Shown here piece after piece: positions 41,429-61,482 of a stretch of 64,000 bases of DNA. The notes under the pieces were generated by a model. The model saw nothing but the letters and a program-made list of their open reading frames with translations, had not been told where the DNA came from and did not search any database. Positions within the stretch are counted from its first letter, which is position 1; the number at the start of each line of letters is the position of its first letter. Source of the DNA: Chamaesiphon sp. 341R_metabat_111 (lineage in GTDB: Bacteria; Cyanobacteriota; Cyanobacteriia; Cyanobacteriales; Chamaesiphonaceae); the NCBI GenBank assembly GCA_025351825.1, contig JANXVE010000160.1, forward strand, positions 1 to 64,000. The letters are read 5' to 3'. A program made the position numbers and the translations under genes.

Positions 41429-41541
41429 TTGATAATAGTTTAGTGGTTTAGTGGTTTAGCAATTGGTAATGTCAACCTCTGCCAGTCCCCCCATCCCCCC
41501 ATCCCCCCGTCTCCCCATCCCCCCATCCTCCGTCCAACCCT

Positions 41542-44442: not shown

Positions 44443-46224
44443 TTATTCCGCACTAATAGTCAACTCGTGGAGATTCCAGAACTCTCCATTGGTTGGTGAA
44501 TAGTCAATACCTTTTATCCGATTTCTTATAGCTGAGAAAGAAGAAGCATTAACTAAATGAATGAAAGGTAAATTGTCTTGGGTAATCTTCTGAGTTTCAA
44601 TATAAATCTCACGACGCTTCTCTTCTTTTAACTCTTGTGCAGCTTGAATATAGAGGTCATTAATCTTCTGCTCCCAGCTAGCAACTTGATGATTGGTTAT
44701 TGCTAGTTTTCCTGTTTTTGGCTTGAGATTAAATAGATGAGAGCCGCCATCTACCAGCCATAAATTGGCAGCATCATTTGGTTCTAATCCACCACCAAAT
44801 CCAATAATAAAGCTATCCCACTGTAAGGAACTATCAATGCGATCGATTAGCAAGCTAAATGCAACTGGTGTGAAATCCACGTCAATTCCAATTGCATCTA
44901 AATCTTGTTTGATTTGGGTACCCAATGCTACTCGAATCTTATTTTCAGCATTGGTCAATAGTGTAAATCTAACTGGATTTTCTCGATCGTCAACTAATTT
45001 ATTTTCTTTATTATATTTGAATCCTGCGGAAGTGACTATTTCTTTTGCTTTTTGAGGATTATAGTCATACCCCTTCAGTCCTTGTTTGCGTGATAGATAA
45101 TAGGGACTGGCAAAAGAGATCGGTGAATCTTGAGGAGAACCTAGACCGTAGTATATGTTATTTATCATTCGCTGACGATTGATACCATAGGCGATCGCTT
45201 GGCGAAATTTAACATTATTAAACCAGCGAGATTTAATTGGATCTACTAATGGTTTACCATCTCTTTCACCTTGATTGAGATTGAATGACATAAACGTAGT
45301 TCCTGATTGTGGCTCACCACCATAAACTTTGTATCCACCTTTTTGTTCCTCTTTTTTTAGCAACGAAAAGAAATCAGATGTTATGGCATAAGAGTCTAAA
45401 CCGCCCGATCTAAATTGAACCAGCCTAGTGTCTGTAGATTCAACGATTTGCCAGACGATTCGATCGATATAAGGTTGTGACTTACCATCTGCGCCCTTGC
45501 GCCAGTAGTAAGGATTTTTCTTGAATACCAATCTTTCCCCAGGCGTGTAGGTATCTAGCATATACATGCCATTAGAAACTAAGTCCGCAGGCTTGGTATT
45601 CAGACCCCAAGTACTTAAGAATAAAGGCTTTCCTTTCTCATCTTTCTGAATGACTGTCGAACGTAATTTGTGGGCAGGTAGAATACTAATTCCTAAAGTA
45701 CGAAGAAATGGTGCGAACGGTTCCGGCGTTGTAAATTGAATCCTGTTACTATCTATATTCTTGACAGTTGGGAGTTTTCGATCTTTGCCAATTTTGAGAA
45801 TATCTCTGGTGTCAGTGGGAATCTCTTCATTAAAATAAACTTCATTGAAAGTAAATGCCACGTCATCGATCGTCAAAGGTTGACCATCCGACCACTTGAG
45901 GTTGGGCTTAAGCGTAAAAACAACACTTTTAGCATCTGGTGAAATTGTCCATGATTCAGCTAGTGCTGGCTGGATTTCACCTTTACCATTCTCAGTAATT
46001 AAACCTTCACCCACATAGCCGAAAATATTTGGAGATGAACTACTAAGTGCTGGATTAAAAGTTTTGGGATCGCTCAGAATCGCATAAACTAATTGATTGT
46101 TCGTCTGGACAGAAGAGGATTTAATGAGTTGCTGACAACTGCTAATACCCAGCACGATCGCCATCATTAGCAAATAGATCGACCAGCGTCGCCATTTAGT
46201 AAATAACATATTTTTTGACATCAT
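44443..46224 (-). CDS. Peptide/nickel-type ABC transporter substrate-binding lipoprotein
   Basis: This solute-binding protein of the DppA/OppA type has a lipobox in its signal (MMAIVLGISSCQQL), so it should be anchored in the membrane. Typical motifs follow: VYAILSDPKTFNPAL near the start, ESWTISPDAKSVVFTLKPNLKWSDGQPLTIDDVAFTFN, and VKFRQAIAYGINRQRMINNI. About 590 residues. No permease or ATPase gene is nearby, so it must work with a transporter encoded elsewhere. Start is either 46224 or 46221; a TTG at 46251 is less likely. Confidence 0.85.
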   Translation of the reverse strand: MMSKNMLFTKWRRWSIYLLMMAIVLGISSCQQLIKSSSVQTNNQLVYAILSDPKTFNPALSSSSPNIFGYVGEGLITENGKGEIQPALAESWTISPDAKSVVFTLKPNLKWSDGQPLTIDDVAFTFNEVYFNEEIPTDTRDILKIGKDRKLPTVKNIDSNRIQFTTPEPFAPFLRTLGISILPAHKLRSTVIQKDEKGKPLFLSTWGLNTKPADLVSNGMYMLDTYTPGERLVFKKNPYYWRKGADGKSQPYIDRIVWQIVESTDTRLVQFRSGGLDSYAITSDFFSLLKKEEQKGGYKVYGGEPQSGTTFMSFNLNQGERDGKPLVDPIKSRWFNNVKFRQAIAYGINRQRMINNIYYGLGSPQDSPISFASPYYLSRKQGLKGYDYNPQKAKEIVTSAGFKYNKENKLVDDRENPVRFTLLTNAENKIRVALGTQIKQDLDAIGIDVDFTPVAFSLLIDRIDSSLQWDSFIIGFGGGLEPNDAANLWLVDGGSHLFNLKPKTGKLAITNHQVASWEQKINDLYIQAAQELKEEKRREIYIETQKITQDNLPFIHLVNASSFSAIRNRIKGIDYSPTNGEFWNLHELTISAE

Positions 46225-46334
46225 TAAAATTATCTTAGCCCAGGCTATCAACTATAATATATTTTTTTAGCGGATCTCACAAGTCCAATCTACATTAAGA
46301 TTGAATCATAAATTACCCTCCAATCCCCGATCTT

Positions 46335-47486
46335 GTGAATTTACGCCTTTTGATTCCATTTTTTGACCCAACGGTAAAAGATTGGTCATTAACAGCCAGG
46401 TTGATGCGGTGGCTGACATTTTTGTGGTTGGCGATCGGCATGTTCGTACTATTCTCAGCTTCCTATTATCATGGGGAGATTGAAAAGAAGGATGGATTGT
46501 TCTATTTCAATCGTCAACTGATGGCGATCGTCATTAGTTTATTTATATTTAATGCGATCGTTCATACACCTCTAAATAAACCGCTCAAGCTCGCACAATG
46601 GATTTTATTGGGGATTTTGGGTTTACTACTGTTGACGGTATTTACCAGTGCGGGTAAAAACACGATGGGTGCGACTCGGTGGATTGCGATCGGTCCGATT
46701 CAACTGCAACCATCAGAATTAATTAAACCATTTTTAGTATTACAAGGAGCAAAACTTTTTGGTCAATGGGAGCGGTATTCTCGCAAGGTTAAGATCGCAT
46801 GGTTAGTAGTGTTTGCGATCGTCCTATTAGCAATTTTAAAACAACCCAATCTTAGCACCACGTCCCTGTGTGCGATCGGGTTGTGGTCGATCGCTTTTGC
46901 CGCAGGGTTGCCGCTCCGGCAGCTATTGTTCACAGCAGTAGGTGGGGTGTTTTTAGCTGGCGTGAGTATGATCGTCAACCCATATCAACTTGTGAGGATG
47001 CTCTCTTTTGTCAATCCCTGGGGCGATGCGCGCGGTGATGGGTTTCAGTTGGTACAAAGTTTGATGGCGATCGGATCTGGCGGCTTTTTGGGTAATGGTT
47101 TTGGTGCGTCTCAACAGAAATTAGGCTACTTACCAATTCAGGATACAGATTTTATTTTCTCGGTATTTGCCGAGGAATTTGGTTTTGTCGGGAGTATTCT
47201 GCTGCTGCTGTTAGTGATGAGTTATGCCACTTTGGGTTTATACATTGCCAGTCGCAGCCATCATCCCGTCCATCGACTGATTGCGGTGGGATCGACAACT
47301 TTTATCGTCCTGCAATCTTTATTTAATATCGGTGTTGCTGCGGGTGTATTGCCAACTACTGGCTTACCACTGCCAATGTTTAGCTATGGTGGCAGCTCGA
47401 TGGTGGCATCGTTGATTCAGTCGGCACTGCTGATCCGTGTAGCACGAGAATCGGCACTTGCTCCCGTGGCTCAATTGGGGAGGTAG
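46335..47486 (+). CDS. ftsW: FtsW/RodA-family SEDS glycosyltransferase
   Basis: The 383-residue protein has about ten membrane segments and SEDS hallmarks: MGATRWIAIGPIQLQPSELIK, LRQLLFTAVGGVFLAG, FIFSVFAEEFGFVG and PTTGLPLPMFSYGGSSM. It polymerises peptidoglycan at the division site (FtsW) or side wall (RodA); the FSYGGSSM end fits both, so the symbol is tentative. GTG start at 46335. The last codons run into an octamer repeat array starting at 47484. Confidence 0.88.
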   Translation: MNLRLLIPFFDPTVKDWSLTARLMRWLTFLWLAIGMFVLFSASYYHGEIEKKDGLFYFNRQLMAIVISLFIFNAIVHTPLNKPLKLAQWILLGILGLLLLTVFTSAGKNTMGATRWIAIGPIQLQPSELIKPFLVLQGAKLFGQWERYSRKVKIAWLVVFAIVLLAILKQPNLSTTSLCAIGLWSIAFAAGLPLRQLLFTAVGGVFLAGVSMIVNPYQLVRMLSFVNPWGDARGDGFQLVQSLMAIGSGGFLGNGFGASQQKLGYLPIQDTDFIFSVFAEEFGFVGSILLLLLVMSYATLGLYIASRSHHPVHRLIAVGSTTFIVLQSLFNIGVAAGVLPTTGLPLPMFSYGGSSMVASLIQSALLIRVARESALAPVAQLGR

Positions 47487-47761
47487 GGGCATGGGGGCGT
47501 GGGGGCGTGGGGGCGTGGGGGCGTGGGTGCGTGGGTGCGTGGGTGCATGGGTGCATTTTGGGAAGAAGTCTTGCTCCCGCACTCCCGCGCTCCCGCACTC
47601 CCGCGCTCCCGCACTCCCGCACTCCCGCGCTCCCGCACTCCCGTACTCCCGCACTCCCGCGCTCCCGCACTCCCGCACTCCCGCGCTCCCGCACTCCCGT
47701 ACTCCCACGCTCCCGTACTCCCACGCTCCCGCACTCCCGCGCTCCCGCACTCCCGTACTCC
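47484..47761. repeat. Octamer tandem repeats, G-rich then C-rich array
   Basis: GTGGGGGC units, then GTGGGTGC units (47487-47556), about eight in all, are followed by 17 bases and about 23 copies of CTCCCGCA/CTCCCGCG/CTCCCGTA (47573-47760). Many overlapping frames on both strands are open because of the repeat, but none is likely a gene. The G-rich part meets the G-quadruplex pattern (four or more GGGGG runs). The 365-base gap 47487-47851 otherwise holds nothing. Confidence 0.9.
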
Positions 47762-47851
47762 AAAACCCGCTCCCAGAGAAATCAGTCATTTCTACGGTGA
47801 TTAATCTGGCGATTAGCGGTATCGTCTACTGGGTCAGCGAGTATTTTCACC

Positions 47852-49264
47852 ATGCCCCAAATTACCAAAGCTCAACCACGACGAGCATTTTTAGCACCTA
47901 GATTTAATCGCTGGGTGTTGCGGCTAGTCGCTGTTGTGCTGCCTTATTGGTTAAAACACAAGTTGTCGATCGCCCAGTTCGATGTGGTCGATATAGATCG
48001 ATTGGTGGAGGTGTATAAGCAGTCGCAAATGGGTAGCTTGCGACTAATTTTGGCTTTTAGACATCCAAGCAGTGATGATTCTTTCTGTTTGGGACACCTG
48101 TTGACAAAAAAATTACCAACTGCTGCGAGAAAACACCGAATTTCGCTGAGATTTCCAGTATTTGCTCATTTCCTCTACGATCGAGGCGTTTCGCTCTGGG
48201 CAGGCAAGAGTGCCAATTGGTTGTATCCCAGGCTGGGCGGAATCCCGATCCATCGCGGTCGATCGAGTCAAGTGGGATTGGATACCGCAAGAGAGTTACT
48301 AATAGATGGTCAGATGCCGCTGGCAATGCCTCCAGAAGGCCGCATGAATGGACATAGTGAGTTTGTGAATCCATTAGGGTCGAGTGCCGCTCAAATCGGC
48401 TTCTCGGCAATGGAGAATCTGATTGCGATGGGGAGATCTGAAGATGTCTTGATTTTGCCGATCGGGATTCAATACTATTATCTAGATGAGCCGTGGTCGA
48501 AAGTAGAAGCCATAATTCATCAATTGGAGCTAGACTGTGGCTCAATTGTCGATCGTCATGACTCACTTGTCGCCATCGAGCAGAGTGACGGACGACCAAT
48601 GCGGAAGCTGCTCTATGATAGGATCTACAACCTCAGTCAGCACCTGCTCTATCAAGCGGAGAACTTCTACGCTCAGTTTTACCACTATCAGATTCCCGAA
48701 CGTCCACCCTTGGATCGCTCGATCTCGCGCACTAAAATCGATCGCAGGCTCCAAGGTGTACTTGCGTTTGCCTTAAAAATATCGGAAACTTACTTTAATC
48801 TCGAACCAAATGGAAATAATCTCGATCGCTGTCGGCAAATCGAGCAGGCTGGTTGGGACTGGATCTATCGAGAGGAACTAGTGCCGCCAGCTAGTCTAGA
48901 CCGAGTTAGTCGCAAATTAGCCGATCGAATTGCCACCGAAGCCGACTTAAGGATGTGGCACATGCGGCTATTGGAAAGCCTTAGATCGATCGTCGATTCC
49001 TATGTCAAAGATCGGCCGACAGTCGATCGATTTGCGGAAGTTACACTGTTGCTGTGGGACTTAGTAGCTCGAATCAAAGCCGAAAAACCCGCCAACCGCC
49101 CCATCCTCGGCAAACGCCGCGTCCAAATCACCATTTGCAATCCGATTCCACTTTCTGACTATTGGGATCGGTATAAGATCGATCGACAGGAAGCGCGCAA
49201 AGCCATCTTGGATCTGACTGAGGAGTTGCAGACAGTAATGGAAGGGACGATCGATCGGGGGTAG
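47852..49264 (+). CDS. 1-acylglycerol-3-phosphate O-acyltransferase-like protein
   Basis: A 470-residue protein with a PlsC-type domain in the first half: the acyltransferase motif HPSSDDSF at about 72-79 (HX4D), GIPIHRGR and PPEGRMNGHSEF. The second half is helical and has no known motif (YRIYNLSQHLLYQAENF type). It transfers acyl chains to lysophospholipids or a related lipid. It is longer than simple PlsC. ATG at 47852. Confidence 0.75.
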   Translation: MPQITKAQPRRAFLAPRFNRWVLRLVAVVLPYWLKHKLSIAQFDVVDIDRLVEVYKQSQMGSLRLILAFRHPSSDDSFCLGHLLTKKLPTAARKHRISLRFPVFAHFLYDRGVSLWAGKSANWLYPRLGGIPIHRGRSSQVGLDTARELLIDGQMPLAMPPEGRMNGHSEFVNPLGSSAAQIGFSAMENLIAMGRSEDVLILPIGIQYYYLDEPWSKVEAIIHQLELDCGSIVDRHDSLVAIEQSDGRPMRKLLYDRIYNLSQHLLYQAENFYAQFYHYQIPERPPLDRSISRTKIDRRLQGVLAFALKISETYFNLEPNGNNLDRCRQIEQAGWDWIYREELVPPASLDRVSRKLADRIATEADLRMWHMRLLESLRSIVDSYVKDRPTVDRFAEVTLLLWDLVARIKAEKPANRPILGKRRVQITICNPIPLSDYWDRYKIDRQEARKAILDLTEELQTVMEGTIDRG

Positions 49265-49388
49265 TGGGGGTGTGGGAGCGTGGGAGCGTGGGAGACTGGG
49301 AGACTCGGGGACTGGGGGACTAGGAGATTAAAACTATCGATCTCTAGACAACTATCCACCTAAAGCCTAAAGCCCAAAGCCTAAAAAA
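49265..49388. repeat. G-rich octamer repeats and CCTAAAGC heptamers
   Basis: GTGGGAGC and GACTGGGA units (49268-49320) follow the stop codon, then CCTAAAGCCTAAAGCC units (49360-49388). It is the same kind of array as at 47484. Confidence 0.75.
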
Positions 49389-49468
49389 GATCGACCAAAC
49401 ACTCCGAATAAATATTACAATTAAAGTTAACAAAATTTAACCACCTTCTCATAGTCCTGGCGTTATCT

Positions 49469-51379
49469 ATGACTGTAATTCCGCCATTGCCAGTGTCTCC
49501 GGTGACACCATTGCTTGCGCGCCTAACTAGTAAACTCAATCGGATCGACCCTTCTCCTGGTCTGGTTGTGATGTTGTTATCTGTCCTGATTGGCGGTACA
49601 GCGGGATTGGGAGTAGTTTTATTTCACTATCTGATCGATCTATTCAACAGCTCCTCTCATAGTTTGGTTGTCGATGACATCAAGGGGCTGTTGCACATTC
49701 AAGGGACTTGGCTATTTGCCTTGGTGCCTGTACTTGGTGGTGTCATTATTGGAGCCATGCGCTGGTACTGGAAAGATTTTGGTCCAAATATGAATTCGAT
49801 GATTGCGGCTACCCAAGCGGGTAAGAAGATTACGCCGTGGCGGGGACTAGTCAAGATGGTGGCGGCAGCGGTATCGCTGGGAACTGGTGCTTCCCTGGGT
49901 CCTGAGGGGCCGAGTGTAGAAATTGGCGCGAATTTGGGGATGTTTTTGGGACAGGCTTTAAATGCATCTCAGGAGCGACAGCGGTTATTGCTGGGTGCGG
50001 GGGCAGCGGCGGGGATTGCGGCGGGATTTAACGCACCGATCGCTGGTGTGTTTTTCGCCCTAGAATTGGTATTGGGGACGACGTTTGCGACTTCGGCGGT
50101 GAGTGTGGTGGTGTTGGCGGCGGTGGTGGCATCGTTGGTTGCTCAGATTGGGTTAGGTGCAAAGCCTGCGTTTGCAATCCCTGTGTATGAGGTCAAGAGT
50201 TTATTAGAATTACCTCTGTATTTAGTCTTGGGCGGGTTGGCGAGTCTAGTTTCTTTTACTTATACTCAAACTGTAGATTTTGCGCGGGAAGCATTTCAGG
50301 GCAAGATAAAAGCCGTCTCATGGTTGGGCAAAATTCCTGGCTATTTGACTCCAGTAATTGGCGGCGCGGTGGTGGGAATTGTGGCTCTGAAGTTTCCCCA
50401 AGTCACGGGGATTGGCTATGAAACGATCGAAGCGATGTTGCAGGATGTGCAGTTTTCGGTGTTTTTATTAGTTTCAATTCTGATCGTCAAACTGTTGATG
50501 ACGGCGGTAAGTTTGGGCAGTGGTTTAGTCGGTGGTTTATTCGCGCCATCGATGTTTTTGGGCGCGACGGTGGGAGCGATTTATGGCAAGTCCTTGGTGC
50601 TAATATTTCCAGCACTCAGTAGCCAGATTGCTGGCCCACCAGCCTATGCAATGGTCGGAATGGCTGCTGTACTAGCGAGTAGTGCGAGAGCACCCTTGAC
50701 GGCGATTCTACTGATGTTTGAGCTGACTCGTGACTATCGGATCGTCTTGCCTGTAATGGCCTGTGTCGGTTTGAGCATGTGGGCGATCGAACGGATGAAT
50801 CCCAAAACCAAGTCGCCCGAAAATTTGGATAAATTAGCTCTGAGCGTTCAGCCAGATGGGGATTTAGTCATTCTCTGCAATCTTCAGGTGCGGGACGCGA
50901 TGGATATCAATTATCTCCGGTTATCCGATCGGTTGGACATTCTCGCCGCTGGGTTAATATTAACTCAAAATAATTGTCATAGTGCCTTGGTAATTGACGA
51001 TCGGGAGGAGTTGGTAGGAATCATCACCCTGCACGATCTGAGTCGGGCAATTTCCCAAGCAGAAGCATCACCACAAACTAGTCTGCTTTTGAGTAACAGC
51101 TTGGGTAGCGTTTGTACCAAAAATCTCTTCTATGCTGATGTCGATGAACCAATTACCGATGCAATCGATCGAATGAATGCCAGAGGTTTACATCAATTAC
51201 CCGTGATCGATAAGTCCACTCCTGGTTTGGTGATTGGCATTCTTCAACAAGAGCAGATCGCCCTCGCTTGTAGCGTTGCAACTACCCGTCAGGCTTTGAG
51301 TAAGTATGACGTGGTGGTAGACAGTACAGAAGCAGACGAATTACCACGATTAAAATCACAGATTACTTGGCACGCTTAG
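49469..51379 (+). CDS. ClC-family chloride channel/transporter with CBS domains
   Basis: The 636-residue protein has a ClC core (residues ~30-430) with GTGASLGPEGPSVEIG, which carries the gating Glu146, and AGFNAPIAGVFFALE. Two CBS domains follow (VRDAMDINYLRLSDRLDILAAGLIL, then ADVDEPITDAIDRMNARGLHQLPVID). GREGP is GPEGP here. It exchanges or conducts chloride across the membrane; the CBS pair may bind a nucleotide. ATG at 49469. Confidence 0.92.
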   Translation: MTVIPPLPVSPVTPLLARLTSKLNRIDPSPGLVVMLLSVLIGGTAGLGVVLFHYLIDLFNSSSHSLVVDDIKGLLHIQGTWLFALVPVLGGVIIGAMRWYWKDFGPNMNSMIAATQAGKKITPWRGLVKMVAAAVSLGTGASLGPEGPSVEIGANLGMFLGQALNASQERQRLLLGAGAAAGIAAGFNAPIAGVFFALELVLGTTFATSAVSVVVLAAVVASLVAQIGLGAKPAFAIPVYEVKSLLELPLYLVLGGLASLVSFTYTQTVDFAREAFQGKIKAVSWLGKIPGYLTPVIGGAVVGIVALKFPQVTGIGYETIEAMLQDVQFSVFLLVSILIVKLLMTAVSLGSGLVGGLFAPSMFLGATVGAIYGKSLVLIFPALSSQIAGPPAYAMVGMAAVLASSARAPLTAILLMFELTRDYRIVLPVMACVGLSMWAIERMNPKTKSPENLDKLALSVQPDGDLVILCNLQVRDAMDINYLRLSDRLDILAAGLILTQNNCHSALVIDDREELVGIITLHDLSRAISQAEASPQTSLLLSNSLGSVCTKNLFYADVDEPITDAIDRMNARGLHQLPVIDKSTPGLVIGILQQEQIALACSVATTRQALSKYDVVVDSTEADELPRLKSQITWHA

Positions 51380-60633: not shown

Positions 60634-61482
60634 TCAGATAATTTCGTTTGGATCGATACCTCGATCGCGAAGATAGGTGATTAGTTTTTCCTTTTCTTCA
60701 CGTTCTCGATCGGCACGTTGAGACTCCTGCTCGGCACGTTGAGACTCCTGCTCGGCACGTTGGGACTCTTGTTCGGCACGTCGGGACTCCTGCTCGGCAC
60801 GTTGGGACTCTTGTTCGGCTCTGTAGCGTTCGGATTCAATCTGTTCTACCGCCCAAGGTAAAATTGCTGATGACTGGTTCCACCACCGCAGCCAGTAGCC
60901 GCAGCGATCGGTTTTAGATCCGTTCCAAGTCCCCAAATAGAGGTCGATTTCTGGTAGCCAATGACGACCATTTTCATCTGGCTGTTCTAATTCGTATTTG
61001 CCGTTTTGCAGTCGGTACAGTTCTAATAATCCAGCTCCTGGCTCAAAGATGACATAAATCGGTATCTGCAATATTTGTTCGTAAAAGAACCATTTACCAG
61101 GAGGATAAGTGGGTTTAATGGAATACTCGCCGCATTCAGTTGCAGAGAGAAATTCCATGACGATCTGAGGTAAGTCGCCTTCTAGATTGGGCGTGTAGCT
61201 GTTGCGAGAAGCCAATTGCTCTTTGACACTGGCAACGTACAACCAATCGGGTGCTTTGATGACCAATTCTCCATTCATCGTTGCACACAGACCAAAGTTA
61301 GTAGCTATCAACATTTGGGGCTGAATGCGTTGGGCGATTTCGAGGCTTTCTCGCAATGCGCCTGCGATTAATGGTTGTCCGGTATTTTCCACAGGTTCAT
61401 CCTCTAGTTTAAATCCAGTAGGAAGGGGTTCCCAGGTGATTTCCAATGCTGGCTTTTGGTTAATCTTGAGTTGAGTTGTCAT
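60634..61482 (-). CDS. Uma2-family protein with a repeat-built coiled coil
   Basis: A 282-residue protein with a Uma2/PD-(D/E)XK nuclease-like domain at about 60-200 (LKLEDEPVEN, PQIVMEFLSATECGEY, EPGAGLLELYRLQNGKYEL). Its C-terminal part (225-270) is a coiled coil made of the 7-residue repeat QRAEQES. The family has the nuclease fold but no proven function. It is a second Uma2 gene beside the broken one at 93. ATG at 61482. Confidence 0.82.
   Translation of the reverse strand: MTTQLKINQKPALEITWEPLPTGFKLEDEPVENTGQPLIAGALRESLEIAQRIQPQMLIATNFGLCATMNGELVIKAPDWLYVASVKEQLASRNSYTPNLEGDLPQIVMEFLSATECGEYSIKPTYPPGKWFFYEQILQIPIYVIFEPGAGLLELYRLQNGKYELEQPDENGRHWLPEIDLYLGTWNGSKTDRCGYWLRWWNQSSAILPWAVEQIESERYRAEQESQRAEQESRRAEQESQRAEQESQRAEQESQRADREREEKEKLITYLRDRGIDPNEII
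60711..60815. repeat. 21-base tandem repeat in the Uma2 coiled coil
   Basis: Five 21-base units (CGGCACGTTGAGACTCCTGCT type) encode five 7-residue heptads. The frame is kept in all units. Confidence 0.85.

Follow-up and report, generated by a model that had tools for sequence, protein, structure and literature searches.

Short tandem arrays of Chamaesiphon, including a paired octamer array behind an ftsW-family gene, and their orientation at gene borders

The STRR heptanucleotide repeats of cyanobacteria, reportedly described by Mazel et al. in 1990, are said to be short, tandem and intergenic, and the small dispersed repeats of Nostoc are reported (by Elhai et al., in 2008) to be short sequences embedded among tandem repeats. 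The closest described system comprises the G-quadruplex-forming heptamers GGGNATC and GGGGA(C/T)T of Xanthomonas and Nostoc PCC 7120 (Rehm et al. 2015, PMC4692102). According to the accessible passages of that paper, these heptamers are intergenic, vary in unit number and lie closer to the 5' ORF regardless of which way that ORF reads, with the G-rich strand being sense within 50 bp after stop codons and antisense within 50 bp before start codons. Inverted convergent pairs were counted in 70 and 75 cases in two xanthomonads and were few in Nostoc, and 83% of the repeats in Xanthomonas had stayed in place, with the same flanking genes, in a close relative. The same passages leave the role of the repeats open and frame the border preference via G-quadruplexes (PMC4692102). 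The TAACTGA heptamers of Beggiatoaceae and cyanobacteria (MacGregor 2015, PMC4679880) are, in the extracts at hand, also located between genes, many of them near start codons without a ribosome site; they have a preferred orientation in one genome, and their indels between close strains are mostly 7-nt steps. A literature search for Chamaesiphon together with tandem repeats returned no paper.

The window analysed here is a stretch of 64,000 nucleotides from Chamaesiphon sp. 341R_metabat_111 (contig JANXVE010000160.1), in which an earlier note had described an octamer array with a G-rich and a C-rich half right after an ftsW-family gene. TRF confirmed this arrangement, reporting period 8 for both halves, with 8.2 G-rich copies at 47486-47551 (94% matches) and 23.5 C-rich copies at 47574-47761 (85% matches). 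The features of this site and of two further pairs in the window are as follows.

46335-47486, plus strand: ORF of 383 aa of the FtsW/RodA/SpoVE family (Pfam PF01098, E 4.6e-98); its final codons, TAG stop included, run into the array
47477-47551, plus strand: G-rich octamer array with units GGGGGCGT, GGGTGCGT and GGGTGCAT (TRF and unit register), conforming to the G-quadruplex rule; the first unit overlaps the coding end
47552-47573, no strand: spacer separating the arms; in reverse complement it contains ..AAGACTTCTTCCCAAAATGC.., like the spacers of some other composites
47574-47761, plus strand: C-rich octamer array of 23 CTCCCNNN units and a decayed end (TRF and unit register)
47590-47701, plus strand: perfect tandem duplication of seven units (56 bp), 47590-47645 being equal to 47646-47701
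47779-47851, plus strand: leader block of the following gene, AAATCAGTCATTTCTACGGTGATTAAT..; altered copies of it were recognised by eye in the relatives L031-L033 and L035-L037
47852-49264, plus strand: downstream ORF of 470 aa, without a Pfam match at E<=0.001
49258-49327, plus strand: related G-rich octamer array at the stop of the 470-aa ORF (TRF)
49359-49385, plus strand: C-type heptamer array CCTAAAG, the right partner of the array at 49258-49327 (again G-then-C)
41438-41528, plus strand: third G-then-C pair of the window, formed by a GTTTAGTG array at 41438-41459 (no GGG) and a TCCCCCCA array at 41486-41528

The match to PF01098 places the 383-aa ORF in a family and cannot by itself tell FtsW from RodA. 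Its TAG stop occupies 47484-47486, and the octamer register begins with the unit GGGGAGGT at 47477, already within the last codons. The G-rich part satisfies the G-quadruplex rule, as the earlier note stated, on the plus strand at 47477-47551, and the C-rich half satisfies the same rule (G3+N1-5) on the minus strand at 47576-47754. Partial pairing of the halves, also anticipated in the earlier note, appears in the predicted fold: RNA of the array in the sense of the transcript was calculated to fold at -138.4 kcal/mol compared with -118.1 (sd 5.1) for dinucleotide shuffles (z -3.97). A search for intrinsic terminators, taken as a G+C-rich stem with a T run behind it, gave no site in the array, terminator-like sites elsewhere in 46300-49500 were as frequent as in shuffled sequence (3 vs 3.2), and no Rfam match exceeded the gathering score in 46000-50000. 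Neither an intrinsic terminator nor an Rfam RNA thus explains the array. A repeat as long as the 56-bp duplication was reached in 24 of 2000 shuffled unit orders, and the duplication is a sign of recent multi-unit expansion of the C-rich arm. The outer end of this arm halts just short of the leader block that recurs in relatives.

Four ORFs of 101-147 aa run through the array on both strands (47364-47789, 47380-47763, 47458-47901 and 47499-47804). They are open because the octamers contain no stops, and are likely annotation artefacts; annotators should be aware that arrays open in several frames create spurious ORFs. Elsewhere in the window, the C-type array at 41486-41528 directly precedes the predicted GTG start (41542) of a 173-aa ORF, the true start of which may lie upstream, so that this array would encode a proline-rich start. 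A 21-bp repeat with 5.2 copies (60710-60819) is located within a minus-strand ORF of 282 aa (60634-61482), and it encodes repeated QRAEQES-like heptapeptides near the C-terminal end.

The same gap was compared in the seven relatives whose FtsW matched best among named genomes (six Chamaesiphon records and one uncultured cyanobacterium, 75-95% identity), six of which could be read past the gene, L034 ending there. In L031 and L032, whose FtsW proteins are 95 and 94% identical to that of the window, just a short spacer separates the stop from the leader of the next gene. The gap of L035, L036 and L037 contains other sequence without such an array, and L033 carries a TAGGGAA heptamer array of 6.6 copies starting from its own stop, followed by a C-rich stretch and the same leader. 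Five of the six relatives read therefore have no array at this site, and the sixth has one of a different type. One gap further on, behind the 470-aa ORF, L035 lacks an array, and those of the window, L031, L032, L033, L036 and L037 all differ from one another. Because arrays differ or are absent at the same gap among relatives, the gaps are old and the arrays inside them young, as judged from two gaps compared and differences at species level. The repeats in these two gaps were not kept between the same genes in close relatives as described for the heptamers of Rehm et al. A turnover so fast that sister species have no array, or other units, at the same gap is well supported.

The suggestion of a special link between the array and a division gene does not survive this comparison, nor does it agree with the abundance of similar arrays, which occupied 29 of 129 gene gaps in unselected stretches of the same genome (4.06 Mb, 202 contigs). 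Three CTCCC units at period 8 gave 181 matches genome-wide and none for the reversed control, indicating that this array type exceeds chance. We counted 136 octamer arrays in the window and 77 fetched regions; these regions surround arrays and were taken from the first 100 listed of 143 places and from the sites of the CTCCC-unit and G-then-C searches, with L182-L184 coming solely from the latter. Arrays detected by TRF were intergenic in 192 of 211 cases in the selected regions and in 45 of 50 cases in the unselected stretches. Period 8 was the commonest in the selected regions of this genome, and period 7, also present there, was commoner in the unselected stretches. It is well supported that the arrays form a genome-wide population of short tandem repeats of period 7-9 in Chamaesiphon, and we regard the array at the ftsW-family gene as an ordinary member of this population and not as a feature of the division gene.

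For the analysis of orientation, arrays of any sequence with G/C skew were detected by TRF at periods 6-9 plus 14 and 16. Genes were called with our own codon-usage script and no published gene finder, starts being less sure than stops. Arrays that had weak skew, were intragenic, did not have genes on both sides or touched two borders were left out of the TRF and stop-border counts; those touching two borders were retained in the count of arrays up to and beyond 30 bp. The regions L117-L120, which overlap L228-L229, were removed for the stop-border and 30-bp counts and kept in the per-set TRF orientation and neighbour counts.

In the two Chamaesiphon species, the G-rich strand was directed away from the gene in 198 of the 203 skewed arrays located within 30 bp of a gene border, compared with 45 of 103 arrays further away, a group that includes the second arms of pairs, frequently located on the opposite side, and is not a clean null. 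The rule is independent of gene direction: an array that reads 5' to 3' out of a gene is G-rich, and one that reads into a gene is C-rich. Accordingly, octamer arrays lying up to 30 bp from a stop were G-rich in the sense strand in 42 of 44 cases (C-rich in 2), and those up to 30 bp from a start were C-rich in 27 of 28 (G-rich in 1). In the genome of the window, 22 arrays obeyed and 1 violated the rule in 184 kb of unselected sequence, and 106 obeyed and 2 violated it in the 77 selected regions (TRF). In the second Chamaesiphon genome, the rule held for all 62 arrays counted in 35 selected regions and for all 3 in 100 kb of unselected sequence, while at 73 ftsW loci of Nostocales and related cyanobacteria, which were not picked for arrays, 38 of 41 borders obeyed and 3 did not. 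When stop borders, which need no start prediction, were considered alone in Chamaesiphon and Nostocales, 123 of 128 obeyed. Arrays without any GGG or CCC at stop borders followed the rule in 50 of 51 cases; arrays such as TTTAGTGG or AGTTGAA comply as well. Since arrays lacking such runs obey equally, G-quadruplexes cannot be the whole reason for the orientation, and an explanation has to be sought in strand skew or in how arrays arise.

The gap skew partly remains in gaps without a detected array, which perhaps contain decayed arrays. We also observed that genes flanked by arrays ended in TAG more often than other genes in the selected regions of the same genome (37/58 vs 63/138, p 0.03), in the second Chamaesiphon genome (21/34 vs 60/160, p 0.01) and in Nostocales (8/19 vs 54/384, p 0.004), with 8/13 vs 56/145 in the unselected stretches of the same genome (p 0.14), as if the G bias reached into the stop codon.

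Opposite-type octamer neighbours within 120 bp of each other were G-then-C in 31 cases and C-then-G in none (77 regions and the window), and 28:0 remained without L182-L184, the regions that the G-then-C search had supplied. The G-then-C pattern occurs 44 times in the whole genome, at 20 sites; a control version in which both arms were reversed where they stood has no match. The ratios of G-then-C to C-then-G among TRF neighbours were 9:0 (unselected) and 59:0 (selected) in the same genome, 37:0 (selected) and 1:0 (unselected) in the second Chamaesiphon genome, and 19:1 at the Nostocales ftsW loci. Many right-hand partners are unrelated heptamers, e.g. CCTAAAG or ACTATTC. The C-then-G order is found in other cyanobacteria, with 20 C-then-G and 15 G-then-C overlapping matches in G018, a genome outside the genus, 7 and 17 in G016, likewise from outside it, and 3 and 0 in G014; the pair rule is therefore not universal in cyanobacteria. 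The C-then-G pairs of G016 include a recurring sequence, CCCAATCCCCCAATACCCTACTTTTCTAGGGATTTAGGG, which may be a small dispersed repeat.

Selection for a hairpin would make the arms of a locus match, and they do not: the proportion of octamers common to the arms of one locus was 0.112, compared with 0.125 when arms were dealt among loci, and 3227 of 5000 shuffles reached the observed value. Pairing thus looks unselected. Inverting each arm in place did change the mean predicted fold from -64.0 to -57.9 kcal/mol (p 0.005), a loss that in our judgement is too small to account for 31:0.

Tentatively, and at somewhat under an even chance, we favour as the best overall explanation that arrays start from seeds at borders and grow out into the open gap, G-rich strand outward. 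That the arrays fill the expendable sequence separating a stop codon from the leader of the following gene is well supported. The seeds would be G-runs bordering functional sequence, in this case GGGGAGGTAG at the end of ftsW; slippage and unequal exchange would lengthen the array into the gap, with the G-rich strand running 5' to 3' away from the border, and wrong-way arrays at a border would be lost or never seeded. When both borders of one gap are seeded, the arms would converge as G-spacer-C. The mechanism implies no specific role in cell division. Position, orientation, turnover and unit duplication were observed, while polar growth and the role of borders as seeds are our inference. Border seeding agrees with the octamer register that runs into the coding end of the FtsW/RodA-family ORF. 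Beyond the array, the flanks of the G-rich strand showed a G-C excess of 0.30 on the 5' side and 0.06 on the 3' side (122 arrays); the G-richness of the 5' flank gives partial support to seeding, and the position of part of this flank in coding sequence counts against it. The unit types are weakly ordered, in that ACT-type units are the closer ones to the gap in 10 of 14 arrays of mixed composition (p 0.05), and no age gradient was detected within 72 arrays, the units being equally alike at both ends (Wilcoxon 0.81); the missing gradient and the weak order count against polar growth. Behind the 470-aa ORF, the units that the window and L031 have in common lie, by eye, at the far end of the gap and new ones beside the stop, a layout that suggests growth at the border instead. 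Another point against the mechanism is that mid-gap seeds growing geneward should sometimes touch the gene in the wrong orientation, and few arrays do.

The strongest rival is a filter at the RNA level, in which both orientations arise and those with a G-rich sense strand before a start (mimicry of a ribosome site, or structure) or a C-rich sense strand after a stop are removed. It draws its strength from distance, because the rule is confined to about 30 bp, and a ribosome reaches about 30 bp along the mRNA. GGGAG repeats resemble Shine-Dalgarno sites, and the octamer counts (42:2 for G-rich sense at stops, 27:1 for C-rich sense at starts) have the expected direction. However, the filter needs two separate rules that agree by chance, and pairs in which neither arm comes within 40 bp of a gene were still G-then-C (12:0, summed over five TRF sets, two of which overlap slightly). 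The genome also gave no match to the RNA-binding domain of Rho, which 9 of 14 controls had; Rho could have explained why C-rich RNA would be avoided behind stops, and Rho-dependent termination was rejected as a cause. We consider this filter unlikely.

Still less probable is a selected function as a two-sided roadblock: whichever way transcription runs, the G-rich arm would come first and would pause the polymerase or stop exonucleases, and so define RNA ends. The composite does read G-then-C from either strand, the predicted fold is strong (z -3.97), and in Xanthomonas, according to the accessible passages, transcripts start or stop in G-quadruplex-capable repeats more often than in controls (PMC4692102). 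Against this, sister species lack the array at this site, arrays free of GGG and CCC follow the rule, the arms do not co-vary, and convergent gaps, which would be most in need of RNA ends, are not enriched (2/21 vs 19/82 tandem gaps, unselected). Very unlikely, finally, is a mobile composite copied between loci as a small dispersed arm-core-arm element with arms later altered by slippage: spacers at unrelated loci are more alike than expected (26 of 406 pairs scoring >=20 vs 0.33), with 26 identical letters common to L134 and L183, but decayed array units explain part of this likeness, right arms often consist of an unrelated unit, and the core had 28 genome matches vs 27 for the reversed control (<=3 mismatches), so that it is not an abundant dispersed repeat. 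Like spacers lie beside unrelated genes at L134 1787-1820, L183 1790-1822 and L175 115-140 (up to 26 identical letters), hinting at possible copying of arm-core-arm units, and the orientation of the spacer core relative to genes showed no clear pattern.

We return to border seeding, the reading that we prefer. In its general form, it would make borders of functional sequence oriented nucleation points, from which a strand-polar process extends G-skewed arrays, whatever the gene direction and whether or not they can form quadruplexes, and thereby builds the intergenic landscape of cyanobacteria; at this breadth the proposal is doubtful. The sharp, quadruplex-independent orientation rule is, in our view, the point that deserves attention beyond the single array, and its symmetry and disappearance beyond about 30 bp make polar growth, ribosome interference and R-loops testable causes.

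The new elements are the octamers and the extension of the rule to arrays without GGG or CCC, the border preference itself being already known for G-quadruplex heptamers from the accessible part of Rehm et al. The rule for arrays incapable of forming G-quadruplexes was not evident in our literature search or in those passages, which is weak evidence of absence, as subscription papers lie mostly outside the search. The Chamaesiphon arrays resemble STRR repeats in being short, tandem, intergenic and cyanobacterial, and differ in that period 8 is the commonest in the selected regions; unlike the small dispersed repeats of Nostoc, their spacers form no abundant family. The TAACTGA unit contains one G and one C and has no skew, and its orientation was judged, in the extracts at hand, toward the start or stop codons of single genes (PMC4679880), unlike the rule described here. 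With the heptamers of Rehm et al., as far as the accessible passages describe them, the Chamaesiphon arrays share the tandem arrangement, GGG-containing units, intergenic location and the sense/antisense preference at borders. They differ from them in having period 8, with units GGGGGCGT and CTCCCGCA and a variable trinucleotide, in the G-then-C pairs, which are common in the Chamaesiphon genome and few in Nostoc, and in that arrays incapable of forming G-quadruplexes follow the rule too, whereas G-rich repeats were the ones studied there. Quadruplex formation is predicted here from a sequence rule, while circular dichroism in vitro was the criterion for the heptamers. On this comparison with the published passages, the Chamaesiphon array is an octamer variant of the Rehm heptamer kind in another genus.
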